Of a stretch of DNA of 64,000 nt, positions 9,767-42,421 are shown one piece after another (the first letter of the stretch is position 1; every line of letters starts with the position of its first letter). Location: assembly GCF_900313065.1 (NCBI RefSeq), contig NZ_OMPU01000004.1, positions 261,474 through 325,473 of the forward strand. The letters are read 5' to 3'. A model generated the notes under the pieces. The model saw only the letters and a program-made list of their open reading frames with translations, did no database searches and was not told the origin of the DNA. The translations under genes were made by a program, and so were the position numbers. The DNA is from Kiloniella sp. EL199 (GTDB lineage: Bacteria > Pseudomonadota > Alphaproteobacteria > Kiloniellales > Kiloniellaceae).

Positions 9767-9837
9767 CCTGAATAACACAAAACCAAAAAATAAAGGGAAT
9801 GAATTCAACCATGAAAACACTCCCTTTAAATGCAACA

Positions 9838-9872
9838 TATTCAATAGATTACAAGATATAATCTATTGAATA
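9838..9872. terminator. Perfect inverted repeat between convergent genes
   Basis: A perfect 14-bp stem (9838-9851 with 9859-9872, 7-base loop) lies between the ends of the GlxA gene and the convergent Ldh_2 gene. The T-run after it is weak (CTTTAACTTTA). An 8-bp stem at 9791-9798/9821-9828 precedes it. A bidirectional terminator is the likely role. Confidence 0.6.
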
Positions 9873-9880
9873 CTTTAACT

Positions 9881-10894: not shown

Positions 10895-10942
10895 GTGTTC
10901 TTCCTTTTATTTTTCTTGTTTAGTCATTTGTTGTTTTAAAGC

Positions 10943-13353: not shown

Positions 13354-13375
13354 ACAAACCTCCAATGAACCAAGT

Positions 13376-13407
13376 AATTCAGGGAAGAAAGCTTTCTTCC
13401 CTGAATT
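13376..13407. repeat. 32-bp perfect palindrome after the BCCT transporter gene
   Basis: Positions 13376-13391 are the exact reverse complement of 13392-13407. It lies 15 bases after the BCCT stop and about 20 bases before the next start. No T-run follows on the minus strand, so it is more likely an RNA-stabilising or attenuating hairpin within the operon than a full terminator. Confidence 0.7.
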
Positions 13408-13422
13408 CATGACAAGAACGAT

Positions 13423-14982: not shown

Positions 14983-15094
14983 CTAAGTTACTCCCTAAGT
15001 ATCATAATCAAGCAGAGCGAACGGTTCCAATGTTGTTCCCATTGGTTATCCCCTTCTCACTGTGTTAATGGTCAAATATTAGACCTGTTGCCTT

Positions 15095-16090
15095 TTAAGG
15101 CTGTTGTGGGCCAAACGAGTTTTCGTAGAATGAAAACCAGTTCATACCCATAATCTGTGCTGTTTCTTCTTGCGAAAATCCAACATCCCGCAACCCTGCA
15201 GCAAGGTTGGGAAAATCTCTGTTGTCTCTGAACCAATCAGGCATTTCAGGAAAACCGGGATTTGACGCAGAGCCTTCACCGTAATCGATTGTCTTGGTCC
15301 ATCGTCCAACGCGCATCCATTCAACGATTGAATCTGGTTGATCCTGACAAAGATCACTGCCAATACCGATGCTTTCAACGCCGATCATTTCAGCAGTTTT
15401 AGCGATCATTGTGCAAAACTCTTCAAGCGTGCAGTCACTCTTTCCTTTCAGATGATGAGGGTAGAGTGAAAACCCGACCATACCGCCTGATTGCGCCAAA
15501 GCTTTCAAAACGGTATCTGATTTATTACGCAATGCCGGATGCCAAAAACTTGGATTGGCATGGGTAATTGCAATCGGGCGTTCAGAGATTTCAATAGCTT
15601 CAAGCGTAGAACGTTCCGCAGAATGAGACATATCAACCACAAGGCCAACACGGTTCATTTCCTTGATCACTTGCTTCCCCATCCGGGTAATTCCCGGATC
15701 TTCGGCTTCGTAACATCCTGTCGCCAACAAAGATTGATTGTTATAGGACAACTGCATGAAACGCGCGCCAAGTGTGTGGCAAATCTCGACAAGCCCGATA
15801 TCATCTTCAATCGGGGAACAGTTCTGAAAGCCAAAGAAAATAGCTGTGCGGCCACTTTCATTGGCACGGCGAATATCATCCGCCGTGCGACCGTGAATAA
15901 TCAAATGATCATGTTGTTCGAAAAAACGGTTCCACTGTTCAACATTGGTTACAGTTTCGCGAAACATCTCGTGATAACAGATCGTGGCATGAACGGCATC
16001 AACACCACCTTCACGCATTTGGGCAAAAGTCTTTTCTGACCAATTACAGTATTGAAGACAGTCAATTACATATGATTTTTTGTCGCTCAT
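15095..16090 (-). CDS. M19 membrane-dipeptidase-like protein
   Basis: A 331-residue TIM-barrel amidohydrolase of peptidase family M19 (renal dipeptidase). The two distal His ligands are visible in DMSHSAERS and ITHANPSFWH. However, the N-terminal HxD ligands are replaced (VIDCLQYCNW) and the bridging Glu is replaced by Gln in FFGFQNCSP. I recall the same substitutions in the Pseudomonas aeruginosa PA5396-type group, which lies beside dimethylglycine and sarcosine genes, so this is probably a specialised subgroup rather than a broken enzyme. AGGAG precedes the ATG. There is no signal peptide, so it is cytoplasmic. Confidence 0.87.
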   Translation of the reverse strand: MSDKKSYVIDCLQYCNWSEKTFAQMREGGVDAVHATICYHEMFRETVTNVEQWNRFFEQHDHLIIHGRTADDIRRANESGRTAIFFGFQNCSPIEDDIGLVEICHTLGARFMQLSYNNQSLLATGCYEAEDPGITRMGKQVIKEMNRVGLVVDMSHSAERSTLEAIEISERPIAITHANPSFWHPALRNKSDTVLKALAQSGGMVGFSLYPHHLKGKSDCTLEEFCTMIAKTAEMIGVESIGIGSDLCQDQPDSIVEWMRVGRWTKTIDYGEGSASNPGFPEMPDWFRDNRDFPNLAAGLRDVGFSQEETAQIMGMNWFSFYENSFGPQQP

Positions 16091-19938: not shown

Positions 19939-21339
19939 ATGGATATGAAAAACGTATCAGCTCCGCCAGAACAGCTATTTGGGCGGCATCGTCGAAAGAT
20001 TGCACCCTATGAAATTCCAGAACATCCCGGTGAGAATGCCAATCCTCAAGAGCTGGAAGAATGGGCGCGTGCCAAAGCTTCCAGTTTAAATCAACATGTT
20101 ATTGGATATGGTTCTTTGGCTGAAAGCGAATGGCAAATTGCTGAAATACCAGAACCTGATCTTGGTACAATGCGACGCTATCGATTGAACCGTATTCGTG
20201 AGCAACTTCAAGCTCGGGACCTTGCCGGTATTTATCTCTATGATCCCCTGAATGTACGCTACGCAACAGATGCCAGTAACATGCAACTCTGGACTTTGCA
20301 CAATCCTGTACGGGCTTGCTTCGTTGCTATAAATGGCCCTGTTATTCTTTATGATTTTCACAACTGTGAACATCTTTCCGATCATTCTGAAGTGGTCGAT
20401 GAAGTACATCCCGGTATCGCATGGTTTTATTTTGAAGCAGGTAACCGTATTGAAGAACAGGCCGCCAATTGGGCCAAGCAAACGGCTGATCTCGTGTATC
20501 AATATGGTGGTGGCAACAAACGTCTGGCTTTTGATCAAATAGACCCACACGGCATTCCCCATCTCAATCGCGAAGGTATCGAGGTCATCTATGGTGAAGA
20601 CGCGATGGAAGAAGCCCGCAAAATTAAATCACCAGACGAAATACTTTGCATGCGTCGTGCTATTACGGCTTGCGAATCCGCCATGCATCAAATGGAAACC
20701 GCCCTACGTCCGGGAAAGAGCGAGAACGATTTGTGGTCAATCTTGCATGCTGAGAACATTCGTCGCGGTGGAGAGTGGATTGAAACCCGTTTGCTTTCTT
20801 CCGGCCCTCGAACCAATCCCTGGTTTCAGGAATCGTCTTCACGAATCATAGAAGATGGCGACCTTGTTGCATTTGATACTGACCTTATTGGTCCTTATGG
20901 ATTTTGTTGCGATATTTCCAGAACATGGCTGGCTGGTGATGGAATACCAAGTAACGAGCAACGCGCCCTGTATCAAATGGCTCTGGAGCAAATAGATCAT
21001 AATCGTGAAATGTTGGCACCCGGTATTAGCTTTAGAGAGCTTTCACTAAAGGGAAAAAGCTTGCCTGAAGAGTACCTGGCAAACAGATATTCCGTCTTGT
21101 TTCACGGTGTTGGTCTCTGTGATGAATATCCTGCTGTCCGATACCCTTCAGATTGGGATGCCGTAGGCTATGAAGGGCAACTGGAACCCGGCATGGTCGT
21201 CTGTGTGGAAAGTTACGTTGGTCGTCATGGCGGACACGAAGGCGTCAAACTTGAAGACCAAATTCTCATTACAGAAACGGGATATGAACAACTTTCAACT
21301 TACCCCCTGGATGATCGCCTAATGGGCATTATCGACTAA
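19939..21339 (+). CDS. dddP: DddP-type DMSP lyase (M24 family)
   Basis: A 466-residue M24-fold protein closely matching DddP, which cleaves dimethylsulfoniopropionate to dimethyl sulfide and acrylate. Shared stretches include DPLNVRYATDASNMQLW, NIRRGGEWIETRLL and HGVGLCDEYP. By alignment from memory with the solved Ruegeria enzyme, all six metal ligands are present (Asp313, Asp315, Asp325, His389, Glu424, Glu439), as is the catalytic Asp395. AGGGGTG precedes the ATG. No acuI or other acrylate gene is adjacent. Its placement among betaine genes leaves open a related substrate. Confidence 0.85.
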   Translation: MDMKNVSAPPEQLFGRHRRKIAPYEIPEHPGENANPQELEEWARAKASSLNQHVIGYGSLAESEWQIAEIPEPDLGTMRRYRLNRIREQLQARDLAGIYLYDPLNVRYATDASNMQLWTLHNPVRACFVAINGPVILYDFHNCEHLSDHSEVVDEVHPGIAWFYFEAGNRIEEQAANWAKQTADLVYQYGGGNKRLAFDQIDPHGIPHLNREGIEVIYGEDAMEEARKIKSPDEILCMRRAITACESAMHQMETALRPGKSENDLWSILHAENIRRGGEWIETRLLSSGPRTNPWFQESSSRIIEDGDLVAFDTDLIGPYGFCCDISRTWLAGDGIPSNEQRALYQMALEQIDHNREMLAPGISFRELSLKGKSLPEEYLANRYSVLFHGVGLCDEYPAVRYPSDWDAVGYEGQLEPGMVVCVESYVGRHGGHEGVKLEDQILITETGYEQLSTYPLDDRLMGIID

Positions 21340-21414: not shown

Positions 21415-23835
21415 TTACCCCATCATTCTCTCTGCTTTGGGGTCAAAGAGGGTTTCCATAAACATTCTGGCCTTGAGCATCACCCCAAGGACTTCGATTT
21501 CCACCTCAAGGCCATCATTGGCAATATCGGTTGGCAAAAATCCATAGGCTACTGATTTCTTGCTGTAATGGGCATAACCACCCGATGTCACAAAACCGAC
21601 TACATTGCCGCCGTGCCAGATGGGTTCATCCCCCCACACATCAGCATCTATTGCTTCAACAATAAAGGTGCAGAGCTTTCGACTGGCCCCCTCTTCTTTT
21701 TCTTTCACTGCCGCAGCTTTACCTATGAAGTCAGCTTTTTTATTGTATGCAGTGAAACGATCCATCCCTGTCTCCACGGGCATATAGTCCGGACGAAACT
21801 CTCTTCCCCATGATCCAAAAGATTTTTCAAGTCTCAACGACATCATAGCGCGCATACCAAAAGGTTTTAGACCTAAATCCTTCCCTGTTTCAGAGAGAAT
21901 ATTATAGAGAGAAGTCTGCTCTTCGATCGGTACATAAATTTCATAACCAAGATCCCCCGTATAGGAAACTCTTTGAACCAAAGCACGACAAGTACCTATG
22001 TCTGTCTCTTTAACATCCAGAAATTTAAAGCTCTCTGCGGAAACATCTTCGAAAGCAACACGGCTCAGTAATTCGCGTGCATTTGGCCCCGCAATCTGAA
22101 AGCCAATGCGTTTAGTCGAGATATTCTCAACAGTAACAAAGCCATCAGACGGCAAATTATCTTCAAACCAGCGCATATGTGCCGCCTGCATTCCAAAAGA
22201 TGCCGTCACCATAAATTCATGCTCATCCAAACAGGACACGGTGAAATCACCAATCAACTTGCCCTTGTGGCTCAACATAGGATTAAGCGCCAGCCGTCGC
22301 GGTTTTGGAATGCGACCAGCCATAATTATATCCAGCCAATCCCGTGCCCCCTTCCCCGTAACACGGTACTTTCCAAAATTATGAACCTCGTTAATCCCAA
22401 CGGCCTCACGAACCGCACAACATTCAGCAGCAACCGCATCAAAAGCATTACTCCGCCTGAAGCTCGGCGTTTCTTCTAACGGTTCGCCTTCTGGTGCGAA
22501 ATAGTTCACAGCCTCCATGCCATACGCCGCACCAAACACAGCGCGTTGTTCTTTCCAGATATGATAAGCCGGGGTTGTTTGATGTGGACGTGCAACAGGC
22601 AATTCTTCATTTGGATATGAAACAGAAAAGCGCCGTTGATAATTTTCTTTCACCTTCGCTCGTGTATATCCCGGTGTGATCCAATCGCCAAAACGGGCAA
22701 CATCCATAGCGAAAACATCCCGTGACGGTTCGCCATCAATCATCCATTCCGCCAAGGTTAATCCCACCCCGCCACCTTGTGAAAAACCAGCCATAACCCC
22801 ACAAGCAGACCAATAGTTTTGTAAACCGGGAACAGGGCCAACAAGTGGGTTTCCATCAGGCGCAAAGGTAAAAGGCCCATTGATAACTGTTTTAACGCCG
22901 ACCCGTTCCAAAACAGGGAACCGCTTGAAAGCAAATTCCAATGAATCACCAATACGATCCAGATTGTTATTTAAAAGTTCATGACCAAAATCCATCGGTG
23001 TTCCGCGTTCAGCCCATGCGTCACAGGCTTGCTCGTAAAATCCGATACAAAGCCCCCTTCCTTCTTGCCGAAGATAACTTTCCCCTTCCGGATCCATGAC
23101 ATGGGGTAATTCACGATCCAGTTCATAAACTTCAGGCGCATCTTCGGTGACCAGATATTGATGTTCCATTGGATGAAGCGGCATATAAACGCCAGCCATT
23201 TCACCAACTTCACGCGCCCACAAACCACCTGCATTCACAATGTGTTCGGCTATAACAGTGCCTTCTTTCGTAACAACTTCCCAAAAGCCATCAGCTTGCG
23301 GGTTGAGCTCTAACACGGGATTACGCAAAACAATCTCTGCCCCGGCCATCTTCGCCGCTTTGGCATAAGCATGGGTTGTTCCCGAAGGATCAAGATGCCC
23401 GTCAAGAGGATCGTAAAGCGCCCCTATAATACCCTCAATATTGGTAATTGGTGACAATTTCTTGATTTCTTCTGGGCTGACAATCTCGGTATCCAGTCCC
23501 ATATAGCGATGTTTTGCACGCTCGGCCTTGAGAAAATCCATACGTTCCGGTGTAGAAGCCAGAGTAACCCCGCCAACATGATGCAGACCACAGGACATCC
23601 CGGTGATTTCTTCAAGTTCCTTGTAAAGCCGGATCGTATAACCTTGAAGCGCGGCCATGTTCGTATCTGCGTTCAAAGTATGAAAACCGCCGGCTGCGTG
23701 CCATGTTGAACCAGATGTAAGCTCTGACCTTTCAATCAACATAACATCGCTCCACCCGAGCTTTGTCAGGTGATAGAGAACGGAACAACCAACAACACCG
23801 CCACCTATGACGGCTACACGAGTATGTGATTTCAT
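21415..23835 (-). CDS. Dimethylglycine/sarcosine dehydrogenase-type flavoprotein with GcvT domain
   Basis: An 806-residue two-part enzyme. Residues 1-400 form a DAO-type FAD domain (VAVIGGGVVGCSVLYHL; GSTWHAAGG with His46, the covalent FAD His position in dimethylglycine dehydrogenase). Residues about 430-800 form a GcvT-type folate domain (SYTGDLGYEIYVP, LRLEKSFGSWGREF). Such enzymes remove an N-methyl group and pass it to tetrahydrofolate. Dimethylglycine is the best guess; sarcosine or another N-methyl amino acid is possible. It follows the next flavoprotein gene by 5 bases. Confidence 0.88.
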   Translation of the reverse strand: MKSHTRVAVIGGGVVGCSVLYHLTKLGWSDVMLIERSELTSGSTWHAAGGFHTLNADTNMAALQGYTIRLYKELEEITGMSCGLHHVGGVTLASTPERMDFLKAERAKHRYMGLDTEIVSPEEIKKLSPITNIEGIIGALYDPLDGHLDPSGTTHAYAKAAKMAGAEIVLRNPVLELNPQADGFWEVVTKEGTVIAEHIVNAGGLWAREVGEMAGVYMPLHPMEHQYLVTEDAPEVYELDRELPHVMDPEGESYLRQEGRGLCIGFYEQACDAWAERGTPMDFGHELLNNNLDRIGDSLEFAFKRFPVLERVGVKTVINGPFTFAPDGNPLVGPVPGLQNYWSACGVMAGFSQGGGVGLTLAEWMIDGEPSRDVFAMDVARFGDWITPGYTRAKVKENYQRRFSVSYPNEELPVARPHQTTPAYHIWKEQRAVFGAAYGMEAVNYFAPEGEPLEETPSFRRSNAFDAVAAECCAVREAVGINEVHNFGKYRVTGKGARDWLDIIMAGRIPKPRRLALNPMLSHKGKLIGDFTVSCLDEHEFMVTASFGMQAAHMRWFEDNLPSDGFVTVENISTKRIGFQIAGPNARELLSRVAFEDVSAESFKFLDVKETDIGTCRALVQRVSYTGDLGYEIYVPIEEQTSLYNILSETGKDLGLKPFGMRAMMSLRLEKSFGSWGREFRPDYMPVETGMDRFTAYNKKADFIGKAAAVKEKEEGASRKLCTFIVEAIDADVWGDEPIWHGGNVVGFVTSGGYAHYSKKSVAYGFLPTDIANDGLEVEIEVLGVMLKARMFMETLFDPKAERMMG

Positions 23836-23840
23836 AAGAC

Positions 23841-25148
23841 CTATCCGATTACTGAGAAGCTGGAATTTTGATTGATTTCACGATTACGGGCAAACACACC
23901 AAGCGAAATGGTTTTGTCGATGTGCTCCAGATGGAATTGCAATGGTATAGCATCATGGTCATGGCCGTTCTCACATGCCTCTACAATTGCCATCATCATC
24001 TTCCCGGCGACAGGCGCGTTCTTGTACTGGTTTCCACTAGTACCCACAGCCATATAAAAACCGGGCAAACAGCTTTTATCGTATATCGGCATCCAGTCTT
24101 CCGTCACATCATAAAGGGCAACAACACCCTTGGTTTTAGAGGGAATGCCAAGTTCAGGGAAACGTTGCGCCATGCGCATCACAAGAACTTTCCACTGCTC
24201 GGAAAAATTTTCATCGTAATTATCGGGATCATCCACCCATTCTTTTTCATCACAGGCAGGATCTTCAGATCCAATCAGAATATTGTTTCCTGTCTCGGGG
24301 CGACAGTAGGTATGGATATCACTATCAGAATAAACCATTCCCTCTTTTTCAAAATCAAATCCTGCCGGCGACGGTACATGAGCAACCTCATGACGAAGAG
24401 CTCGCGTGCTCATTTTCATATCCCCACATACGCCCGCCATTTCATTGACTTTGGATGAATGCGGACCGGCAACATTAATCACAACAGGCGCGTTAATCTC
24501 AGTCCCATCAGCTAATTTAACGCCACTTACCCGTCCATTTTGTTTCAGGATCTCACTGACTTCTGTTTTAAACAAAAACTCTGCCCCATTGGCTTCAGCA
24601 GCGCGTTGAGCATTATGGGCCGACAATTTGGGATCATTCACATAACCGCCACGCGGGAAGAAAACAGCACCTTCGACAGCTGGTCCCGTCGGCAATCCAA
24701 ATTCAGGATCTTCCGGGCGGCGAGCAGGCTCAAATTGTTGTGTATCAGCTATCGGTAAATATTTTTTAATCTCAGATGTCTGAATATCTTGATAGGGGCA
24801 CCCAATTTCATCCATTGTTGCGCAGACCTTACTGAGCGAATGATTGTGAGGTGTTTTAATAACGAGGCATCCGGTTTCTTTATATTCAATCATGCCATGA
24901 TCATCTTGAACGCCTATGTATTCGTCCCAATTTTTCCAGTAATGCCAGCCTTCATAAGCAAGCGCACAGGTTTCCAAAGCAGAATAGTAAGTTCGAATAA
25001 TCGCGCAGGAACCTGATGTCGAGCCATATCCAGATTCAGGCAACTTATCGATGGATAGAGTTTTCCACCCTTTCTTGGCCATTTCAAAAGCTGTACAGGC
25101 CCCGATGACCCCTGCACCAATGATGATTGCGTCGTATGATTTACTCAT
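23841..25148 (-). CDS. FAD-dependent oxidoreductase (DAO family)
   Basis: A 435-residue DAO-family flavoprotein with an N-terminal FAD site (AIIIGAGVIGACTAFEMA) and a second FAD contact (GYGSTSGSCAIIRTYYS). It resembles single-chain amine or amino-acid oxidases and SoxB-like proteins; the substrate is unknown. It lies between the MttB-family gene and the dimethylglycine-dehydrogenase-like gene, all on the minus strand, so it probably oxidises the demethylated product. Many acidic residues around 110-160 and a short C-terminal tail are its own features. Confidence 0.85.
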   Translation of the reverse strand: MSKSYDAIIIGAGVIGACTAFEMAKKGWKTLSIDKLPESGYGSTSGSCAIIRTYYSALETCALAYEGWHYWKNWDEYIGVQDDHGMIEYKETGCLVIKTPHNHSLSKVCATMDEIGCPYQDIQTSEIKKYLPIADTQQFEPARRPEDPEFGLPTGPAVEGAVFFPRGGYVNDPKLSAHNAQRAAEANGAEFLFKTEVSEILKQNGRVSGVKLADGTEINAPVVINVAGPHSSKVNEMAGVCGDMKMSTRALRHEVAHVPSPAGFDFEKEGMVYSDSDIHTYCRPETGNNILIGSEDPACDEKEWVDDPDNYDENFSEQWKVLVMRMAQRFPELGIPSKTKGVVALYDVTEDWMPIYDKSCLPGFYMAVGTSGNQYKNAPVAGKMMMAIVEACENGHDHDAIPLQFHLEHIDKTISLGVFARNREINQNSSFSVIG

Positions 25149-25257: not shown

Positions 25258-26799
25258 CTAGAAATCCCCTGACACACCCCCCTCAGAGGTTCTGCGTGCC
25301 ACAAAATCAGCTATTTCATCCTGTCTACTGATATCGAGATCTGGTTGCTGGTAGTCATTGATAATGTTTTTATAAATTGAATGCGCCCGCTCTGTTGTTG
25401 TCTTTGATCCATTTTCTTCCCAGTTTTCGAAATTATTCCAATCAGACAAAATCGGAGAATAAAACGCTGTTTCATAACGCTCGAGTGTATGTGGCGTACC
25501 AAAGAAATGCCCGCCTGGACCGACATCCTTAACAGCATCTAACCCTAAGCTACTTTCTGTTATTTCAGGTGGTTGCAGAAACTTTGTCATCATTTGCAAC
25601 ATCTCGGCATCGATGATTACCTTCTCGAAAGAGGCACATAACCCGCCTTCAATCCATCCTGCACCATGCATCAGCATATTGGCCTGTCCCATAACCGCAG
25701 ACCATATAGACATCTGACTTTCGTAAGTTGCCTGTGCATCGACACAATTCGATGCATTGGCATTAGATGAACGATAAGGGACACCAATCCGCCGGGCCAG
25801 TTGCCCACCAATCATTGCCGCTTGTGCATTCTCAGGCGTTCCAAAAGCAGGCGATCCACTTTTCATGTCAACATTAGAAGTAAAGCCCCCATAAGCAACG
25901 GGGCATCCCGGGGCAACCAACTGTAACAATGTCATCCCGGCAAGTGCTTCAGCATGTTGTTGAGCCAAAGCCCCTGCAATGGTAATCGGTGCCATGGCAC
26001 CTGAGAGGGTAAAGGGTGTAATGACACATAGCTGGTTGTGACGTGCCATTTCCATAGCACCATCAATCATCACCCCGTCCAAACGAAGGGGCGAAGATGT
26101 GTTGATAATCGTGAATAATCGGGTTTTTTCCTTGAAGTCGTCCCAGTTTTCACACTCATGCGCTATACGGGTAATTTCCAAAGCATCAGTAATACGTTCT
26201 TTCCCCAACGCGTAGGCGTGGTAAACCTTGTCCGTAAGCAAAGCCATATCCGCAATACATTCGAGGTGCCGTATGCGTGGCAGGATATCAACTGGCTCTA
26301 CCGGATACCCTGCAATAAAATGTACAATATTCAACGACTGGCACAGCTTTAAAAGGTTACGATAATCTTCCTGATTTCCGGGACGTCGACCACGTTCTAT
26401 GTCGCTAACATTTGGCGCCGATGCTACAGACCCAAAAGAGATGTTCCCAGGTGACAAGCTTAAATTATGTACCGGATTACGGGCGTGTAAAACCACATCC
26501 GATGGAGCATTTGACATGGCCTCTTTGATCAACCCCCGGTCCATAAAAACCCGGTCACTTCCAACCTCTATCTTTGCGCCGACTTTATGAAAAATGTCTT
26601 TTGCTTCTTTATGCAGAATATCAATACCAACTTCTTCGAGAATACGGTAAGCCGTATCACAAATAGCATCGATTTGACCTTCATCGAGTATCTCAACAGG
26701 TTGATAAGGTGTCCGAACCTTGGACCAAGGTAACTGCTGAAACGCAAATGCAGCAATATGCGGCCTTTTATTCCTTTTACGCCCAGATCTTTGCATCAT
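25258..26799 (-). CDS. MttB-family (trimethylamine methyltransferase-like) protein, non-pyrrolysine
   Basis: A 513-residue member of the MttB superfamily. The ATG at 26799 is chosen because GGGAG lies about 9 bases upstream, removing 10 codons from the longest frame. Family features include DEGQIDAICDTAYRILEE, the glycine-rich barrel (GPGGHFFGTPHTLERYE) and a full-length C-terminus. No in-frame TAG exists, so it is not a pyrrolysine enzyme; characterised members without pyrrolysine include glycine betaine methyltransferase. No corrinoid protein gene lies in the window. Neighbours are a DAO flavoprotein, a PhnD-like protein and a membrane desaturase-type protein. Confidence 0.88.
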   Translation of the reverse strand: MMQRSGRKRNKRPHIAAFAFQQLPWSKVRTPYQPVEILDEGQIDAICDTAYRILEEVGIDILHKEAKDIFHKVGAKIEVGSDRVFMDRGLIKEAMSNAPSDVVLHARNPVHNLSLSPGNISFGSVASAPNVSDIERGRRPGNQEDYRNLLKLCQSLNIVHFIAGYPVEPVDILPRIRHLECIADMALLTDKVYHAYALGKERITDALEITRIAHECENWDDFKEKTRLFTIINTSSPLRLDGVMIDGAMEMARHNQLCVITPFTLSGAMAPITIAGALAQQHAEALAGMTLLQLVAPGCPVAYGGFTSNVDMKSGSPAFGTPENAQAAMIGGQLARRIGVPYRSSNANASNCVDAQATYESQMSIWSAVMGQANMLMHGAGWIEGGLCASFEKVIIDAEMLQMMTKFLQPPEITESSLGLDAVKDVGPGGHFFGTPHTLERYETAFYSPILSDWNNFENWEENGSKTTTERAHSIYKNIINDYQQPDLDISRQDEIADFVARRTSEGGVSGDF

Positions 26800-26855
26800 G
26801 ATCGCGTCTCCCAATACAGTACAAAACACCTAAAACAAAACAAACGTAATCATTC

Positions 26856-27653
26856 TTAAATTTCACAACTCATACCAAAGGTACGTTTCACAATATTCAA
26901 TCGCGTTTCTATCACGTCATAATCACGCTCTTTTAAAGGGGAAAAACCTATAAGTAACAGGGCTTCACGTGTCTCTTCATCAAGGGAAACCATTGCATCA
27001 ACAACAGCCATATGAAGTTGATCAATCTCTTTTCGAGAACGTCGTGCCGTGATAAAAGGGAGCGTTGGCGTTGGTTCGCTTGTGGCTATAACTTTTAGTT
27101 TTTGTGCCGCGGGTTCATGACGCAAAGCCAGTTCCCAACTGAGCGCATCAATCGATGCAAAGTCTGCACGGCCTGCTGCCACGGTCTGAATAGATGCCCG
27201 ATGACTACCACTTTCGAAAGAAGATCGAAAATCCTTGGTATTTCCGATGTGGCTTAAAGTAAATAAAAGGGCCGCATAACCAGATTGAGATCTTTTATCA
27301 TTATAGGTAAAGGTCAACCCTTTTAAGTCATCCAATGTATCTATCGACGTATCTTGATGAACAACAATGACGCTAAAATAAGAACCTGCCCCGCAGTTTA
27401 TGCCATAAGCAGGTGTTCCCACTAAAGACACCTTGTCTTTCAGTACCGTTTTAAAAGGCAAACCACAGGTTTGGGATAGAAGCAAATTATCACCTAACCA
27501 CTGATCCATAGTCGCAATTGTCCTATTCAGAGCTGTGGGAGCAATAAATCCTTGATCAGCAAGGCTTGTACGAAGCTCTTTAAAAAATCGATCATTATAA
27601 ATTTGAACTTCTGGCCAGTCATACATGGGAAGAGAGACAATGGCTTCACTCAT
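26856..27653 (-). CDS. PhnD-like substrate-binding protein without signal peptide
   Basis: A 265-residue periplasmic-binding-protein-type fold of the phosphonate/PhnD group. Telling stretches are VSLPMYDWPEVQ, GTPAYGINCGAGSYFSV, TLDDLKGLTFTYNDKRSQSGY and ADFASIDALSW. The N-terminus is hydrophilic and lacks a signal peptide, and no permease or ATPase lies beside it, so it is probably a cytoplasmic ligand-binding or sensor protein rather than a transporter part. It begins 4 bases after the desaturase-type gene and precedes the MttB-family gene, so all three are likely one transcript. Confidence 0.8.
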   Translation of the reverse strand: MSEAIVSLPMYDWPEVQIYNDRFFKELRTSLADQGFIAPTALNRTIATMDQWLGDNLLLSQTCGLPFKTVLKDKVSLVGTPAYGINCGAGSYFSVIVVHQDTSIDTLDDLKGLTFTYNDKRSQSGYAALLFTLSHIGNTKDFRSSFESGSHRASIQTVAAGRADFASIDALSWELALRHEPAAQKLKVIATSEPTPTLPFITARRSRKEIDQLHMAVVDAMVSLDEETREALLLIGFSPLKERDYDVIETRLNIVKRTFGMSCEI

Positions 27654-27657
27654 CTCA

Positions 27658-28599
27658 TCAACCTTGATTTGCGTTTACTGTTTTAGAAGCTGATTTCGCT
27701 TTTCCAGCATTTGGCCTTTTTGGTGTGAAAGGATATGCCACAGGTTCTTTTTGTGAAAAGGTAAAAAGCTTAAATATTTCGGCGTAGTTTTTGAAGCTGT
27801 AACCTTTGTTCATTTCCAAAAAGCGCTGTCGATTTTTTTGAAAAATATCTGGTAATTTATACCAGGCAACAGTTGGATAAGCATGATGAACAACATGCAA
27901 GTTGTTGTTCAAAAACAGAAAGCTGAAAAAACCTTTATCTTCAACAATAACTGTTCTGGCCCGCATAGACTCATGAGCCTGGTGTTCTAAAAACGTACGA
28001 ACCATCAACAGAGAATAGGCAAAATAGCCGCAGATAAGATAAGCCCAGACAGGCATATCGCTTACAACATAAATAAAGGTGATAACCAATCCAGACATCA
28101 CAAAATGCATCAACCAAATTAAAATGGTCTTCTGCTCACCATTCTTATACTCGTATAAGGCGAAACCAATAACACTTAGGGTTGGCCCAATAAGCATCCG
28201 GCCAAACAATGAGTTATTAAAATTGAAAATCGTTTTTACCCACTCAGGACGCTTTTCCCAGATTTCCAATTCCTGATAGCCACTTTCGGGATCTTCGTAA
28301 GGGTCGCTTATACTAGCATTTTGATGGTGCTTGATATGGGTTTCTTTAAACCGGAGATAAGGAACCAAAAGCCCAATCGGCATTATAACGATTGCATCGT
28401 TTAACTTTTCTGACACAAAGGGATGACCATGAATACATTCATGCTGGAGAGAGGAATGCAAAGTAATCAGAGGAATAATGATAAGTATTTGTATACTTAA
28501 CGGTACACCAAAAGGATTGAGAAGCATTAATCCCCAAAAAAAATAGCAACATATAATTAGTAATACTGTCCGCCACTCAGCACTGTCACGTAGCCACAC
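27658..28599 (-). CDS. Membrane fatty-acid-desaturase-family di-iron protein
   Basis: A 313-residue integral membrane protein of the desaturase/hydroxylase family, with the three His boxes that hold a di-iron centre: QHECIHGHP, HIKHHQN and HVVHHAYP, between about four to five membrane helices. The GTG at 28599 is chosen because GGAGG lies 7 bases upstream; the frame extends 19 codons further. The family includes fatty-acid desaturases but also hydroxylases of small molecules. Because it sits in an operon with an MttB-family methyltransferase, oxygenation of an N-methylated compound is as plausible as lipid desaturation. Confidence 0.85.
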   Translation of the reverse strand: MWLRDSAEWRTVLLIICCYFFWGLMLLNPFGVPLSIQILIIIPLITLHSSLQHECIHGHPFVSEKLNDAIVIMPIGLLVPYLRFKETHIKHHQNASISDPYEDPESGYQELEIWEKRPEWVKTIFNFNNSLFGRMLIGPTLSVIGFALYEYKNGEQKTILIWLMHFVMSGLVITFIYVVSDMPVWAYLICGYFAYSLLMVRTFLEHQAHESMRARTVIVEDKGFFSFLFLNNNLHVVHHAYPTVAWYKLPDIFQKNRQRFLEMNKGYSFKNYAEIFKLFTFSQKEPVAYPFTPKRPNAGKAKSASKTVNANQG

Positions 28600-28716
28600 T
28601 TCAAAACCTCCGTTATTTAACTTAATAACGATGCGGCAGAAAAAGACTATCGACAATAATACAATTCAACCATTATAATAATAATTAGATGATAATCGTT
28701 CATTTTGTAACTAAAA

Positions 28717-29604
28717 ATGGATAATGATGTGAACTCACAACAATCTAATTTAAATAGTTCTGACAAACGGGATGTAGCCCATATTTTTCGTGAACGAATG
28801 GCACTACTAATTTCGCAGAGCGGCAACAATCTAAGTCAGTTCTCCAAATCAATTGGTATAGACCGTTCCGCCTTGAGCCAGTTTCTGGCGCCAGATTCAA
28901 CCAGGCTTCCAAGAGCAGAGACTTTGTGTGCGATTTCAAGAGCCTGTGGGGTTTCTTTAGACTGGCTTATGGGCTTGATTGCAAATGATGGACACAGTGA
29001 CGATATCGTCCCGTCCATCGAAATCATGCAAATGAATGAAGAAGAAGCAACGCGTAAGCTGGAAGAATGGCACAGGGAAGCCATTGGTTACAAAATCAGG
29101 TACGTCCCCAATACACTACCAGATACCATGAGGATCGACGAAGTCAGCAAATTTGAATTTAAGTATAATCATCTTTTTATTCGTAAGGCCCAGGATCAAC
29201 AAGCAAAGCAACACCTTATTAAAACTGCGAAGCCAGACACAGATATGGAAGTCTGTATGCCTTTACAAACCCTGGAGTTATTCGCGAAAGGGGAAGGTGT
29301 GTGGAATGAACTGTCAATAGATGTGCGAAGAAAACAATTGGAACACATGTTGAAACTTGTTGGCGAATTTTACCCAACTTTCCGCTTGTTTTTCTTTGAT
29401 CAACAAGCGGTTTATTCCGCCCCCTACACTCTCTTCGGGCCTTTGCGCGCGGCAGTTTATCTGGGAAATATGTATCTGCTGGTAAACTCTGTGGATCACA
29501 TCAAAGCGCTGACTCAACACTTCGATAGATTAATTCGCCTAGCTACAATTGGACCCGACAAAGCGGAAGAGCAAATTAAAAAATTTATTAACGAAATAAA
29601 ATAA
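28717..29604 (+). CDS. XRE-family regulator with unknown C-terminal domain
   Basis: A 295-residue regulator with an XRE helix-turn-helix at about residues 28-90 (NNLSQFSKSIGIDRSALSQFL). A C-terminal domain of about 200 residues, probably ligand-binding (MPLQTLELFAKGEG, FPTFRLFFFD-like region, YTLFGPLRAAVYLG), is not recognised. It is divergent from the desaturase-type gene and is the natural regulator of that operon. Confidence 0.85.
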   Translation: MDNDVNSQQSNLNSSDKRDVAHIFRERMALLISQSGNNLSQFSKSIGIDRSALSQFLAPDSTRLPRAETLCAISRACGVSLDWLMGLIANDGHSDDIVPSIEIMQMNEEEATRKLEEWHREAIGYKIRYVPNTLPDTMRIDEVSKFEFKYNHLFIRKAQDQQAKQHLIKTAKPDTDMEVCMPLQTLELFAKGEGVWNELSIDVRRKQLEHMLKLVGEFYPTFRLFFFDQQAVYSAPYTLFGPLRAAVYLGNMYLLVNSVDHIKALTQHFDRLIRLATIGPDKAEEQIKKFINEIK

Positions 29605-29984: not shown

Positions 29985-31637
29985 ATGAAATTCTTTAGAC
30001 GTAATGGCAAGCCAATGCCATCTCATACAGTCAAAATGGCCGAAGAAGCAAAATCCGGCACTATGGACCGCCGAGAGTTCCTTGCTATTGCCAGCGTTTT
30101 TGGCGCAACGGCTGCTACCGCGTACGGTATGCTTGGTATGGTCGCACCATCCAAGGCAATTGCTGCTGAAGGTAAAAAAGGTGGTATCCTGAAAGTATCA
30201 ACCAGTGTACGTGAGCTCAAAGACCCGCGCACATTTGACTGGTCTGAAATGGGTAACCTCGCGCGCCAATTCTTAGAACCGCTTGTCCGTTATAACCGCG
30301 ACTTTACTTTCGAAGGGCGTCTTCTTGAAGGCTGGGAAATCAACGATGATGCGACTGTATATAACCTGAAAGTCCGTAAGGGTGTTAAGTGGAATAATGG
30401 TGATGATTTCAATGCCGACGATGTGATATTTAATATGACGCGCTGGTGTGACAAGGCTGTAGAAGGTAACTCTATGGCTGGTCGAATGGCGACCCTTATC
30501 GACGAAAAAACAGGCAAAGCCATCGAAGGCGCGATTGAAAAGGTAGATGACCACACCGTACGATTAAACTTGCCTAAATCCGACATCACTATCATTCCGG
30601 GAATGAGCGATTATCCGGCCCTTATCGTACACCGTGATTACGAAAAAATGGGTAGCGATCTACCATCTAATCCAATTGGTACAGGCCCGTTTGAACTGGA
30701 ATCATACGAAGTTGGCACTTCTGCGTCCGTTAAACGCCGCACGAATGGCAAATGGTGGGACGGCGACGTTTATCTGGATGGTGTCGAGTTTATTGATTAC
30801 GGAACGGATCCTTCTGCCGAAGTTGCTGCGTTTGAATCTGGTGAAATCCATACAAACTACCAAACAACCGCTGACTTTATCGAAATTATGGATAGCCTTG
30901 GCCTAACCAGATCAGAAGTTGTCACATCAGCAACTGTTGTTCTTAGAACCAATGCAACCCACAAACCATATGATGATCAGCGTGTTCGTAAAGCCTTGCA
31001 GATGGCTGTGGATAACGAGACGGTTCTTCAACTTGGATATGGCGGCGCAGGTACTGTTGCCGAAAACCACCATGTGGCGCCTCTTCATCCTGAATATTAT
31101 GAACTTCCAAAACAAGAACGGGATATTGAAGGCGCTCAGAAGTTAATGGCAGAAGCTGGTCAGAGTGAATACGAGCACGAACTCATCTCAATTGATGATG
31201 ATTACCGCAAAAATACTGCCGATGCAGTTGCGGCTCAAATTCGTGAAGCAGGATTCAAAGTAAAACGTACTGTCTTGCCGGGATCAACTTTCTGGAACGA
31301 CTGGACCAAGTATCCTTTCTCTATCACCAACTGGAATATGCGCCCTCTGGGTGTACAAATTTTAGCACTTGCTTACAGATCAGGTGAAGCCTGGAATGAA
31401 ACTGCGCACAGCAACCCTGATTTTGATGCAAAGATGAAACAGGCTCTTGCAATCGCAGATGCTGATAAACGTCGGGAAATCATGAAAGATCTGGAACAAA
31501 TTCTACAAGATTCCGGACATATCATTCAGCCATACTGGCGTTACCTGTTTAACCATTCAACACATAACGTTCGTAATCACGGTATGCACCCGCTTTTCGA
31601 ATTTCATTTCGAAAAGGTTTGGCTCGACGACGCCTAG
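29985..31637 (+). CDS. ABC transporter substrate-binding protein, peptide/opine type, Tat-exported
   Basis: A 550-residue family 5 solute-binding protein (DppA/OppA type). The N-terminus has a twin-arginine signal ([15 protein letters not shown]) followed by a hydrophobic stretch and a likely cleavage after AKAIAA-type residues (SKAIAAEG). Binding-protein marks include [19 protein letters not shown] and [20 protein letters not shown] precedes the ATG. The permeases and ATPase follow directly. Ligands of this family include peptides, opines and amino-acid conjugates; the neighbouring amine oxidoreductase suggests an N-substituted amino acid. Confidence 0.92.
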
Positions 31638-31652
31638 TTGTTTTGTTGGAAC

Positions 31653-31688
31653 AATCACAGGAGTTTCATGACCGAAACTCCTGTGATT
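31653..31688 (+). promoter_or_regulatory. Intercistronic hairpin after the binding-protein gene
   Basis: A perfect 15-bp stem (31653-31667 with 31674-31688) and a 6-base loop lie 16 bases after the binding-protein stop. No T-run follows. Such hairpins usually protect the binding-protein mRNA and lower expression of the permease genes that follow. Confidence 0.7.
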
Positions 31689-31732
31689 TACCCAAAAACA
31701 CTGGGATTTAGCGTCAGACCAACGGGGCCAAT

Positions 31733-32770
31733 ATGTTCACATTTTTCTTAAAACGCTTGGGCGTCATGGCTTTGACCATGTTATGCTTGACGATTGTTGT
31801 TTTTTCACTGGTCAATCTGGATCCAAACCTTCGAAAGCTTTCTATTTCGCAAACAAATATGAGAGCAACAGATGTTGAGATTGAATCCTGGCTGGTTAAT
31901 AACGGTTACAGAGATCCCTTTCTTGAACGTTATGGATCTTGGCTAGGGCTCTGGCCCAGACAACCTAATATTGATCAAAAAACAGGCGAAGCCGTCTCAC
32001 GTTTTAAGTATTGTGACGACCCGACAGTTCCTACCTTTTCCGGAGTTTTCCAAGGCGATTTTGGGTGCTCAACCAAATTTAAGAAAAAAGTCGCAGATAA
32101 ACTGGTCCCTGCCCTGCAATCAACAGGTTGGTTAATGTTTTGGGTCATGGCTGTCATGATCCCTTCTGCTTTGCTGATAGGTATTCTTGCCGGTATGCGC
32201 GAAGGTTCGCGCACGGACCGTAGCTTGTCCATTGTGTCCATTACATCCACGGCAACACCTGAATACGTGTCAGGCATATTTTTCACTGTAATTTTTGCTT
32301 CCTGGCTTGGGTGGTTAAACGGCTCCGCCGCAACAGCAACTTCCAAAGGCATTACTTTTTACAACTTTGCCCTTCCCGTAATGACGATGGCCATTTACGG
32401 CATGGGTTATATCGCCCGCATGACACGTGCCTCTATGGTAGAGGTTATGACGGCACAGTATATCCGGACTGCTCGCCTCAAAGGTATGGGCTTTTACGCC
32501 GTCATCATCAAACACGCCCTGCGCAATGCACTTATCGCACCCTTTACCGTTATCATGCTTCAATTTCCATGGCTGCTGACTGGTGTTGTGATTGTTGAGA
32601 TCATGTTCAGGTATCAGGGTTTTGGTTTTACTCTCGTTCAAGCGGCCGGTAATAACGATATCGATCTCTTGTTGGCCTGTTCACTTGTTTCTGTGGTTGT
32701 CGTGCTGGTTACCCAGCTCATATCAGATGTAGGCTACGCCTATCTCAACCCTCGAATTCGTGTGAAATAA
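31733..32770 (+). CDS. ABC transporter permease (DppB type)
   Basis: A 345-residue inner-membrane permease with about six helices and the ATPase-contact loop (RTARLKGMGFYAVIIKHALRNAL region, near 250-270). An insert of about 80 residues between helices 1 and 2 (LDPNLRKLSISQ through GDFGCSTKF) holds two Cys residues that could form a periplasmic disulfide. It pairs with the permease gene that follows. Confidence 0.92.
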   Translation: MFTFFLKRLGVMALTMLCLTIVVFSLVNLDPNLRKLSISQTNMRATDVEIESWLVNNGYRDPFLERYGSWLGLWPRQPNIDQKTGEAVSRFKYCDDPTVPTFSGVFQGDFGCSTKFKKKVADKLVPALQSTGWLMFWVMAVMIPSALLIGILAGMREGSRTDRSLSIVSITSTATPEYVSGIFFTVIFASWLGWLNGSAATATSKGITFYNFALPVMTMAIYGMGYIARMTRASMVEVMTAQYIRTARLKGMGFYAVIIKHALRNALIAPFTVIMLQFPWLLTGVVIVEIMFRYQGFGFTLVQAAGNNDIDLLLACSLVSVVVVLVTQLISDVGYAYLNPRIRVK

Positions 32771-32780
32771 GGGGGCTGAC

Positions 32781-33932
32781 ATGGAATTCTTATCAACATT
32801 CGACATTATTACGACAACACTCATCCAGTTATGGCCAACATGGCTTGCGCTTATCATATTGGTCGCTGCAAGTTTTGCCTTTCAAAATCAACTCGGTCTA
32901 TACGGCAGGTTATTTGACAGTGGGGTTGGTATCGTCGGCGTTCTCATCGTCGCGTTTTGGATTTTCACGGCGATCTTTGCGAATATCATTGCCCCCTTTG
33001 ATCCGCTTGAACAAATTGTGGTCATGAAAAACAAACTCCCCGGTGCGATAGAACCGGGAAGTGGGGAAGCCTTTCTGTTTGGCGGAGACAAGCTTGCACG
33101 AGATGTATTCAGTCGTGTTGTTTATGGCAGCCAGATTGTTTTAATTATCGCCCCTGCCGCAACAATTTTTGCTTTGATGGTTGGCATTTCCCTCGGACTA
33201 CCTGCGGGATATTACGGCGGAAAGACAGATACGGTTCTGTCATTTCTTGCAAATCTGGTTCTGGCTTTCCCTGTTATATTGCTCTTCTATCTTTTGGTTA
33301 CACCGGGAATTACAGAGACACCAATTCCTTACGCTATGGCAGGGTTGTTCTTTCTTTTTCCCATCGTCTTTTTTGTGGCCCTGTTCTATTCACGGTACAA
33401 AAAAAGAACCGAAGTTTTATGGATACAGTTGGCGATCACCCTGATCCTCGGTGGCTGGATCTATGCCGGACTTGTTTTTAATGCTGATCCACTTGGCATC
33501 ATTTCCATTGATCCGAACGAGCTTAATATTTTTGTCGCTGTGGTCTTCGCAACCAGTCCGGCTGTATTCCGAATAGTTCGTGGTTTGGTCATGGATATCA
33601 AAACCCGAGACTATATCGCAGCGGCACAAACAAGGGGTGAAACACCATGGTATATAATGCTTTGGGAAATCCTCCCCAATGCCAGAGGGCCTTTGATTGT
33701 TGATGCCTGTTTACGTATTGGTTACACGACCATTCTCCTCGGCACCCTAGGCTATTTCGGATTGGGTATGGCGCCTGAGAGTCCCGATTGGGGCACAGCG
33801 ATTAAAGAAGGCTCGCGCCTGCTTCGCCTTTATGTACACCCTGCACTCTTTCCTGCTGCGGCTCTGATGTCGTTTGTTCTTGGCTTGAACCTATTGGCTG
33901 ATTCACTCCGTGAAGAGTCCCTGAAAGACTAA
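32781..33932 (+). CDS. ABC transporter permease (DppC type)
   Basis: A 383-residue permease, longer than the usual 280-310 residues because of extra hydrophobic segments at the N-terminus and around residues 175-245. The DppC-like N-terminal portion (PFDPLEQ) and the ATPase-contact loop (AAQTRGETPWYIMLWEILPNARGPL region) are clear. GGGGGC precedes the ATG, 10 bases after the previous stop. Confidence 0.92.
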   Translation: MEFLSTFDIITTTLIQLWPTWLALIILVAASFAFQNQLGLYGRLFDSGVGIVGVLIVAFWIFTAIFANIIAPFDPLEQIVVMKNKLPGAIEPGSGEAFLFGGDKLARDVFSRVVYGSQIVLIIAPAATIFALMVGISLGLPAGYYGGKTDTVLSFLANLVLAFPVILLFYLLVTPGITETPIPYAMAGLFFLFPIVFFVALFYSRYKKRTEVLWIQLAITLILGGWIYAGLVFNADPLGIISIDPNELNIFVAVVFATSPAVFRIVRGLVMDIKTRDYIAAAQTRGETPWYIMLWEILPNARGPLIVDACLRIGYTTILLGTLGYFGLGMAPESPDWGTAIKEGSRLLRLYVHPALFPAAALMSFVLGLNLLADSLREESLKD

Positions 33933-33955
33933 AGGAAGGATTAAGGGAGATGACA

Positions 33956-36052
33956 ATGACTGAAGACACACCAATTCTTGAAATTAAGAACCTTTCTATA
34001 TCCTTCTTTGTCCGTACGGGTGAAATTCCAGCGGTTATGGATTTCTCTTGCAAGGTAATGCCCGGCGAAGCCATGGGACTGGTGGGTGAATCAGGCTGTG
34101 GAAAATCTACTGTCGCCTTGGGGATCATGCGGGATCTTTCCAATATCGGTAAGATTACTGAAGGTACGATTAAATTCATGGGCAAGGACATGGGTGAAAT
34201 GTCCGAGGCTGAATTGCAAGACATTCGTGGATCAAAGATCTCGATGGTTTATCAAGAGCCAATGGCCAGCCTTAACCCCGCCATGAAAATCGGAAAACAG
34301 CTTATGGAAGTTCCGATTATTCATGAAAAGGTTTCAAAGGATGCTGCCTACGCACGATCATTGGAAATGCTGGAAGCTGTCAAACTACCTGATCCGGAAC
34401 GCATGATGCGCTCTTACCCGCATCAGTTATCTGGTGGGCAACAACAACGTATTGTCATTGCAATGGCCTTGCTTTCAAAACCAAAGTTACTTCTTCTTGA
34501 TGAACCAACAACAGCTTTGGATGTCACCGTAGAAGCAGGTATCATTGATTTGGTTAAAGATCTGGGAAAACGGTTTGGAACCTCCATTCTCTTTATATCT
34601 CATAATCTGGGACTGATTTTGGAGACTTGTGACCGCATCACAATTATGTATTCAGGTGAGGCCGTCGAAAGCGGCACCGTAAACGATGTCTTTGATCGTA
34701 TGCAGCACCCCTATACCCAAGGACTTTTCCGATCAATTCCTCTGCCTGGTGCAGATAAAAACACCCACCCTCTTGTGGCTATTCCCGGGCAATTACCACT
34801 ACCGAATCAACGTCCGCACGGCTGTAATTTCGGGCCTCGCTGCCATCACTATGTCGAAGAGGTATGTAATGCGGGCCACATAAATATGATGCCCGTGGCC
34901 AATGAAGAAGGGCATACAAGCCGCTGTTTACGGTTTGAGGAAATCGACTGGAAAGCATTACCGGAAAACTCACAACAACATGAAGCGATTCAACCCGGCC
35001 GTGAAGTCCTTAAAGTTGAGAACCTGAAAAAATACTACCATGTAGCCGCAAATGCTATATTCGGTGGATCTGATACACGTACAGTCAAAGCCAACGAAAC
35101 CTTGTCTTTTACAGCTAGAGAGTCCGAAACAACAGCCATCGTTGGAGAATCAGGTTGTGGTAAATCAACTCTTGCGAAAGTTCTATTAGGGCTGGAAACA
35201 GCGACAGACGGAACCGTCACGATTGATGGCCTGAATATAGAAGCAGTTGAAGTTGATAATCGTACGCCAGAAACCATTGCTTCCCTTCAAATGGTTTTCC
35301 AAAACCCGTTCGATACCCTGAACCCAAGCCATTCAATCGGATCACAAATTATCCGGACCCTTGAAAAATTTAACATCGGCGCCAATCAGAAAGAACGCGA
35401 AAGCCGTATGCTCGAGCTACTTGATCTGGTCAAGCTACCCAGAGCATTTGCGTCGCGTATGCCGCGACAACTTTCCGGCGGGCAAAAACAGCGTATCGGC
35501 GTTGCACGCTGTTTTGCCGGGCATCCCAAAATAGTTGTTGCAGATGAGCCTGTCTCTGCACTGGATGTTTCTGTTCAAGCTGCTGTTACAGAACTTCTTA
35601 TGGATATCCAACGAGAAGCAAAAACAACGATGTTATTTATTTCGCATGATCTCTCTGTTGTGCGATACATAGCAGACCGTGTGATCGTTATGTATCTGGG
35701 TCATATCGTCGAACAAGGAACGACAGATCAAATCTTTGCGCCGCCTTATCATCCCTATACCGAAGCCCTTCTCTCGGCTATTCCGATTGCGGATACATCA
35801 GTTGAGAAAAAACACATCGTACTTGATGGAGACATTCCTTCGGCGATGAGGCCGCCTTCTGGCTGCCCATTCCATACCCGGTGCCCACATGTTTCCGAAG
35901 TTCCGGGCGATCTCTGCGCCAAAGAAGTGCCCGAAATCAAAAATCTGAGCGACGGACATCAAATAAAATGTCATCTCGCTAATGATATTCTCGAACGCAT
36001 GGAACCAGTCATCAGTTTTGACAAAAGGGAAAAAGACCATACGGCAGCCTAA
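33956..36052 (+). CDS. Fused ABC ATPase (DppD-DppF type)
   Basis: A 698-residue protein joining the two ATPase subunits of a peptide-type importer. Each half has a Walker A motif (GESGCGKST, twice), a signature (LSGGQQQR; LSGGQKQR), a Walker B (LLLLDEPTTALD; VVADEPVSALD) and the C-terminal oligopeptide-transporter Cys pattern (CNFGPRCHH; CPFHTRCPH). The second ATG at 33956 is chosen because AGGGAG is spaced properly for it; the first ATG, 6 bases earlier, abuts that site. Its 3' end overlaps the longest frame of the next gene. Confidence 0.92.
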   Translation: MTEDTPILEIKNLSISFFVRTGEIPAVMDFSCKVMPGEAMGLVGESGCGKSTVALGIMRDLSNIGKITEGTIKFMGKDMGEMSEAELQDIRGSKISMVYQEPMASLNPAMKIGKQLMEVPIIHEKVSKDAAYARSLEMLEAVKLPDPERMMRSYPHQLSGGQQQRIVIAMALLSKPKLLLLDEPTTALDVTVEAGIIDLVKDLGKRFGTSILFISHNLGLILETCDRITIMYSGEAVESGTVNDVFDRMQHPYTQGLFRSIPLPGADKNTHPLVAIPGQLPLPNQRPHGCNFGPRCHHYVEEVCNAGHINMMPVANEEGHTSRCLRFEEIDWKALPENSQQHEAIQPGREVLKVENLKKYYHVAANAIFGGSDTRTVKANETLSFTARESETTAIVGESGCGKSTLAKVLLGLETATDGTVTIDGLNIEAVEVDNRTPETIASLQMVFQNPFDTLNPSHSIGSQIIRTLEKFNIGANQKERESRMLELLDLVKLPRAFASRMPRQLSGGQKQRIGVARCFAGHPKIVVADEPVSALDVSVQAAVTELLMDIQREAKTTMLFISHDLSVVRYIADRVIVMYLGHIVEQGTTDQIFAPPYHPYTEALLSAIPIADTSVEKKHIVLDGDIPSAMRPPSGCPFHTRCPHVSEVPGDLCAKEVPEIKNLSDGHQIKCHLANDILERMEPVISFDKREKDHTAA

Positions 36053-42348: not shown

Positions 42349-42421
42349 CTCTCATTACTTCACATAGGCTCAAGATAAATCAGCACTAACGTTGATCAAC
42401 AAAGATGTGCAGGAGAGCAAG

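Follow-up and report, generated by a model that had tools for sequence, protein, structure and literature searches.

A 64,000-nucleotide stretch of the Kiloniella sp. EL199 genome (contig NZ_OMPU01000004.1, positions 261,474 to 325,473), called the window here, carries genes for an MttB-family methyltransferase, a PhnD/AioX-like binding protein and a membrane di-iron enzyme, which face the gene for an XRE-type regulator. We find that these genes form a conserved module, and that the module most likely serves the catabolism of N-methyl betaines. With moderate confidence, we describe it as a set of genes under XRE control for the catabolism of a quaternary ammonium compound of the betaine type, comprising MttB, flavoenzymes, the di-iron enzyme and the AioX-like protein; the corrinoid step is the best-supported part of this description. 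The gene content, the conservation, the folds, the pocket residues and the presence of the corrinoid set in the genome are direct findings; all reactions, the sensor role and the substrate are our inference. The features of the locus are as follows (positions in the window).

28717..29604, + strand: XRE-type regulator (HTH_3) with a predicted C-terminal PLD/TrmB-like sensor domain (fold of the model)
28600..28716: divergent intergenic region between the XRE and di-iron genes, aligned in five Kiloniella-type loci
27658..28599, - strand: membrane di-iron enzyme of the fatty-acid-desaturase superfamily (PF00487); the open frame reaches 28656
26856..27653, - strand: cytosolic PhnD/AioX-like binding protein (PF12974; structure matches AioX/ArrX)
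25258..26799, - strand: MttB-family methyltransferase without a pyrrolysine codon (PF06253); the open frame reaches 26829
23841..25148, - strand: DAO-family oxidase dependent on flavin adenine dinucleotide (PF01266)
21415..23835, - strand: DAO-GcvT fusion resembling dimethylglycine/sarcosine dehydrogenase (PF01266, PF16350, PF01571, PF08669)
29985..36052, + strand: Opp/Dpp-type ATP-binding cassette (ABC) transporter with its own binding protein (SBP_bac_5; permease, fused ATPase)

Organization and conservation of the module

The MttB, PhnD-like, di-iron and XRE genes lie where an earlier reading of the letters alone (the sequence-only reading) had put them, and all four are supported by Pfam, with 623 bits for MttB (PF06253), 99 bits for Phosphonate-bd (PF12974) and 117 bits for FA_desaturase (PF00487). 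Their tight packing was confirmed as well: the di-iron and PhnD-like genes are 4 bases apart, and the gap to MttB, given earlier as about 57 bases, is 56 when the ATG at 26799 is taken as the MttB start. As read from the sequence, GGGAG stands upstream of this ATG, and GGAGG precedes the GTG at 28599 where the di-iron gene starts. The DAO gene follows 109 bases after MttB on the same strand and the DAO-GcvT gene 5 bases further, so that the operon is probably five genes long (di-iron, PhnD, MttB, DAO, DAO-GcvT). These two genes and the Opp/Dpp-type transporter flank the module and are additions to the earlier account.

A search for co-occurrence of the three families with the XRE gene had been proposed as a check, and it showed a conserved triad. 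Across 61 genomes of the order, the PhnD-like and di-iron proteins were each found in 49 and the XRE protein in 50, with all three present in 48. The triad lies within 3 kb in 46 of these 48 genomes, the other two having the genes on separate contigs, and this linkage exceeds chance. The commonest order outside the genus is MttB> <DES XRE> GFA> PhnD> amidase> (DES, the di-iron gene), with variations; because gene order varies among relatives, the linkage of the triad survives rearrangement. Five of the nine Kiloniella genomes carry the triad, and one 77%-complete genome has an XRE match alone. Kiloniella majae and K. litopenaei, both close to the window genome, have the module genes in an identical order.

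We extended the count to 385 genomes of the class, using all 80 PhnD places and merging two di-iron pieces of one genome (G146). A di-iron gene lies within 3 kb at 31 of the 44 XRE places, 20 of which also have PhnD; conversely, 31 of the 56 di-iron places have XRE and 33 have PhnD within 3 kb, and a di-iron gene is near only 33 of the 80 PhnD places. In the phylum (398 genomes), the XRE protein was found in 29, every one from the same class. The sequence-only reading had named two grounds for giving it up, namely that the di-iron gene would sit with lipid genes or that the genes would be separated in relatives; neither was seen in the order, while class-wide the genes also occur apart.

Gene neighbors point to betaine catabolism

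Neighbors were compared at 36 triad loci, made up of the window, L036 and 34 of the 38 loci fetched from the order (L055 to L094, minus L090 and L091); three of the 36 are from Kiloniella, and some loci end at contig edges. MttB is present in 22, a GFA-family gene in 24 and an amidase gene in 15; ten loci, from five families of the order, have HutI, HutF or a relative of histidine ammonia-lyase. In Phaeobacter sp. G2 and at three loci of the class, genes for carnitine 3-dehydrogenase and BKACE are near the XRE and di-iron genes. In Terrarubrum and G061, homologues of the window genome's corrinoid protein, of its DUF1638 neighbor and of the reactivator lie near the di-iron and PhnD genes. A DAO homologue (76% identity) adjoins the di-iron and PhnD genes in Hoeflea poritis (L038). 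The identified neighbors are mostly betaine, histidine and methyl-transfer genes, and they point to betaine catabolism.

It is improbable in our view that the di-iron protein is an ordinary lipid desaturase, placed by chance close to genes for betaine use, and that the PhnD-like protein has nothing to do with it. The superfamily name and hydrophobic segments of the di-iron protein would fit such a role, but its linkage to the PhnD and XRE genes is kept across the order despite rearrangement, and the recurrent neighbors that were identified (MttB, GFA, amidase, Hut genes) include no lipid gene. Lipid desaturation is thus rejected, or at least weakened, by the gene context.

Turning to the window itself, the Opp/Dpp-type transporter sits beyond the XRE gene, and in both K. 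majae and K. litopenaei it adjoins the module as well; it is a possible importer for the module. The earlier remark that the binding protein has no transporter partners holds for a PhnD transporter but not for this separate, adjacent oligopeptide-type system. Positions 4171-16090 contain SoxA- and SoxB-family sarcosine oxidase subunits, both above NCBIfam cut-offs, and two proteins that fall short of theirs, a regulator resembling GbdR and a BCCT-type transporter; we regard these as further methylated-osmolyte catabolism genes and count them in favor of a betaine substrate. At 19939-21339 lies an M24 protein closest to the dimethylsulfoniopropionate lyase DddP, below the cut-off (513.6 of 600 bits). 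In Mesorhizobium sp. J18 (L053), genes for MttB and DAO-GcvT accompany a relative of this M24/DddP-like protein (486 bits).

MttB and its corrinoid partners

PF06253 covers MttB at full length (open-frame residues 14-518; profile 1-500 of 500). We rejected a pyrrolysine-containing trimethylamine (TMA) methyltransferase, as MttB scored 289 bits with TIGR02369, the cut-off of which is 525, and the 523-codon frame has no in-frame stop. On another contig, the genome has genes for a corrinoid protein (PF02607) and a reactivator (PF14574), each above its Pfam cut-off, and for a methyltetrahydrofolate (methyl-THF):corrinoid methyltransferase (NF005719, 366 bits; cut-off 259). The genome therefore holds the genes that an MttB system requires, namely a corrinoid protein, a methyl-THF transferase and a reductive activator. 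A 308-residue protein, also encoded on that other contig, appears MetF-like by eye; at 1e-30, NCBIfam gave no match for it.

In a tree of 30 MttB rows, the window MttB groups with 25 others at 98/96 support, nearly all of them from module loci. The row of L127, a module locus, falls just outside this group, and two other copies of the genome (L090, L091) stand apart from it. The copy at 42392 is on a long, unreliable branch; this second MttB-family protein of the window (42392-43978) is very divergent (26% identity), and its neighbor (41265-42287) is a regulator of the AraC type that carries a DJ-1/PfpI domain.

A cytosolic PhnD-like protein with the AioX/PhnD fold

When solved structures were searched with a profile, AioX (1e-29) and ArrX (6e-25) came ahead of the PhnD proteins of Pseudomonas aeruginosa (6e-13) and Escherichia coli (8.5e-11), and the first ten fold matches of the predicted model (mean predicted local distance difference test score, pLDDT, 95.5) are all AioX/ArrX chains. 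Six residues, Cys63, Tyr92, Ser122, Ser124, His151 and Asp169, are invariant across 52 PhnD-like sequences and align with AioX Cys106, Tyr131, Ser161, Ser163, His192 and Asp210; six of the seven AioX pocket residues are thus aligned, and the equivalent of Tyr88 falls outside the profile alignment. In AioX, arsenite is bonded by Cys106, a residue that PhnD lacks, and AioX in the crystal also bound phosphate (PMC5908839). In six plasmid relatives the Cys, both Ser, the His and the Asp are kept, with Tyr92 replaced by Met in two, and, judging from two aligned positions, the acidic residues with which PhnD holds its ammonium group appear to be missing from the PhnD-like protein. Ligand binding is plausible because the AioX-type pocket is kept; the intracellular ligand sensor or chaperone proposed from the sequence alone is a putative role.

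A hydrophobic N-terminus was found in none of the 52 sequences, which bears out the reported lack of a signal peptide, and the protein is a cytosolic branch of the AioX/PhnD fold. Phosphonate transport was rejected as a role: the TIGR03431 score is 57.6 with a cut-off of 261 bits, there is no signal peptide, and the adjacent genes are MttB, di-iron and XRE rather than phn permease and ATPase genes. Relatives of the PhnD-like protein adjoin varied catabolic genes. In Ruegeria conchae (L214, 3785-8750), such a gene is divergent from an arsenic operon (helix-turn-helix (HTH) protein, glyceraldehyde-3-phosphate dehydrogenase (GAPDH), ArsJ and ACR3) and is also next to a DUF1045 gene. In Fuscovulum (L216, 7009-14266), one lies beside genes for an Ldh-type dehydrogenase, xanthine-dehydrogenase-type proteins and 6-hydroxynicotinate reductase.

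Two other substrates have to be weighed here. Demethylation of an organoarsenical such as arsenobetaine, with the PhnD-like protein sensing trivalent arsenic, would account for the AioX-type pocket with its arsenite-binding Cys and for the R. conchae relative facing arsJ and ACR3. We consider it highly improbable, since members of the family that share this Cys have unrelated catabolic genes as neighbors, and phosphate binding by crystalline AioX, as the cited part of PMC5908839 has it, means that the Cys may contact another oxyanion. Homologues of ArsJ, ACR3 and GAPDH of the R. conchae type are not in the other 133 of the 134 stretches searched, and a general arsenic linkage was accordingly rejected, or at least weakened. 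Catabolism of an N-methylated heterocycle such as homarine (a subject of PMC13390433, as far as the cited part goes) would fit the relative beside the 6-hydroxynicotinate reductase and molybdenum-hydroxylase-type genes; this is a single locus, and we find the explanation quite improbable.

The membrane di-iron enzyme

The three His boxes seen in the sequence-only reading (HECIH, HIKHH and HVVHH) proved to be in invariant columns across 36 sequences, the invariant histidines being H72/H76, H107/H110/H111 and H254/H257/H258 in the numbering of the 332-residue frame. With its hydrophobic segments, the protein has the sequence marks expected of a member of the membrane di-iron desaturase/oxygenase superfamily. 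NCBIfam gave weak matches to the carotenoid oxygenases CrtW and CrtR, and profile search found no solved relative at E <= 0.1. A precedent in the superfamily is MocD, which, in the part of PMC2593844 cited here, is an oxygenase that turns 3-O-methyl-scyllo-inosamine into scyllo-inosamine, a demethylation; part of PMC10107442 also covers MocD.

The XRE regulator and the divergent region

The XRE protein has an HTH_3 domain and a C-terminal part that is unnamed in Pfam, as the earlier description of an unrecognized sensor domain implied; its predicted model (mb80193b96870, mean pLDDT 76.2), however, resembles the folds of TrmBL2, TrmB and PLD in the region of roughly residues 98-281. VIA-align Z scores for the C-terminal domain were 10.3 for PLD4, 9.8 for TrmBL2 and 8.9 for the TrmB sugar-binding domain, moderately above the background of 7-8, and Foldseek found no match for the model at E <= 0.001 (best E 0.002). 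We assign the sensor domain a PLD/TrmB-like fold with moderate confidence, on the strength of the model. The divergent region has a mean column identity of 84% in five Kiloniella-type loci, over 221 columns that include flanking coding sequence. An inverted repeat upstream of the di-iron start was considered as the XRE operator; it is altered in L035 and L055, and therefore no operator is claimed.

Divergent lyases and the case for a histidine betaine

Both HutI and both HutF proteins that we scanned are above the NCBIfam equivalog cut-offs, while neither of two divergent lyases scanned reaches the hutH cut-off. When one module-linked lyase was compared with solved structures, ergothionase was best (6s7j, 249 bits), with 218 bits for the best ammonia-lyase. 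The GASGD motif, which forms the 4-methylideneimidazole-5-one (MIO) group, is lost in 21 of the 21 divergent lyases examined and kept in four of the four hutH-like proteins; according to a 2026 paper (PMC13405746), MIO is absent from ergothionase. The MIO-less family in the order (L060, 12406-13950, and loci L192-L205) is distinct from canonical HutH-like proteins. A distance count was made for 24 of the 60 lyase places, restricted to divergent lyases with at least 43% identity: at least five lie within 1 kb of an MttB (44 of the MttB places were entered, so that the MttB distances are lower bounds) and six within 12 kb of the module.

The link to histidine betaines thus recurs in relatives, and it raises the question of whether the substrate there, and possibly in the window genome too, is hercynine, ergothioneine or a related trimethyl-histidine that feeds the Hut pathway. 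The ergothionase-like lyase, the lost MIO motif, the proximity of divergent lyases to MttB and the module, and the HutI and HutF assignments all argue for it. We nevertheless rate it as rather unlikely. The sole lyase found in the window genome keeps the canonical motif, and an MIO-less lyase was not found there; HutI, HutF and lyase genes are all absent from the fetched stretch at 26 of the 36 triad loci; other loci have carnitine genes instead; and 18 of the 24 divergent lyase places are not near the module. To our knowledge, a pyrrolysine-free MttB acting on TMA would be unprecedented, which also counts against a histidine betaine if the lyase releases TMA.

A proposed pathway for a quaternary ammonium compound

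Under the preferred reading, the catabolism of a betaine-type compound, we hypothesize that MttB would shift the first N-methyl group from the quaternary nitrogen to the corrinoid protein encoded elsewhere in the genome, and that the methyl-THF:corrinoid methyltransferase would hand the methyl group to folate. The N-methyl groups that are left would be removed oxidatively by the DAO and DAO-GcvT flavoenzymes. The membrane di-iron protein, probably an oxygenase, may hydroxylate or demethylate the methylated substrate or an intermediate, and the GFA-family protein, encoded near the di-iron gene in relatives, could handle formaldehyde. Through Cys63, Tyr92, Ser122, Ser124, His151 and Asp169, the PhnD-like protein would bind a small ligand that bears an oxyanion or reacts with thiols; its most likely task is to report on a compound of the pathway or to deliver it. 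The XRE protein, with its PLD/TrmB-type domain, would switch the operon. A demethylation or oxygenation route for an N-methylated compound had been suggested from the sequence alone and is supported in part: the conserved unit and its betaine-type neighbors speak for such a route, and the oxygenation step is one that we infer.

Several observations weigh against this reading. The triad was not found in three near-complete genomes of the same genus (G042, G043 and G049). The XRE regulator, which had been called private to the set, is linked to it in the order (46 of 48) but is not strictly private: class-wide, a di-iron gene is missing within 3 kb at 13 of 44 XRE places, and 12 of the 56 di-iron places lack both XRE and PhnD over the same distance. 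MttB was not found in 14 of the 36 triad loci, some of which are cut by contig ends, and the DAO gene is confined to Kiloniella loci (3 of 36), with DAO-GcvT in two of these and one other. On plasmids of Rhizobium, Agrobacterium and Erwinia, the di-iron gene, with or without PhnD, lies beside flavin monooxygenases and amino-acid or taurine-type transporters, and an XRE relative lies among metal-resistance genes in Mesorhizobium sp. INR15, which speaks against a pure betaine role. The corrinoid protein and the reactivator are both below NCBIfam cut-offs. Finally, no recurrent ferredoxin or reductase partner appeared among the identified di-iron neighbors, although no dedicated search was made.

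A more specific proposal is that a MocD-like membrane di-iron oxygenase and a cytosolic AioX-type protein with a Cys pocket cooperate on histidine-type betaines (hercynine, ergothioneine) under the control of the XRE regulator and its PLD/TrmB-fold sensor, and that the AioX-type protein senses a product that is an oxyanion or reacts with thiols; this would be a previously unrecognized alphaproteobacterial system, and we offer it tentatively, as unlikely. A variant of this proposal with an arsenic betaine as substrate is conceivable too.

Taken together, these results turn a loose grouping of di-iron, PhnD and MttB genes into a conserved, testable module. They add a cytosolic branch of the AioX fold that retains the arsenite-binding cysteine, and, for several families within a single order, they connect lyases resembling ergothionase with corrinoid methyltransferases. 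We know of few aerobic corrinoid demethylation routes that have been characterized. If the proposed function is true, the module would supply enzymes, and possibly a biosensor, for the breakdown of histidine betaines or other marine betaines.

Comparison with known systems

The window MttB resembles the non-pyrrolysine MttB superfamily, with 346 bits to PDB 4yyc and 304 bits to the glycine betaine methyltransferase 9yce, and, as in those systems, a corrinoid protein, a methyl-THF transferase and a reactivator are encoded in the genome; it differs in that the window operon has no corrinoid protein gene. The lyases neighboring the module in some relatives appear, from their sequences, to be like ergothionase in having the histidine ammonia-lyase fold without the MIO-forming motif, whereas such a lyase was not found in the window genome. 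The di-iron protein shares three His boxes with the rhizopine oxygenase MocD, CrtW and AlkB, but no ferredoxin genes were seen alongside it; MocD, likened here by description and not by sequence, provides the precedent for demethylation.

The regulator differs from TrmB, TrmBL2 and PLD in that its HTH is of the XRE type, and identity to them is 6-12%. No His is invariant across 41 aligned XRE sequences, so it lacks the HKD motif, which we take to be the hallmark of PLD. Like the arsenic-oxyanion sensors AioX and ArrX, the PhnD-like protein has a PhnD-type fold and keeps the arsenite-binding Cys. In contrast to periplasmic AioX, it is in the cell interior, as it has no signal peptide; in contrast to AioX two-component signaling, the operon has no histidine-kinase gene and the adjacent regulator is of the XRE type; and it is linked to methyl catabolism rather than to arsenic oxidation.

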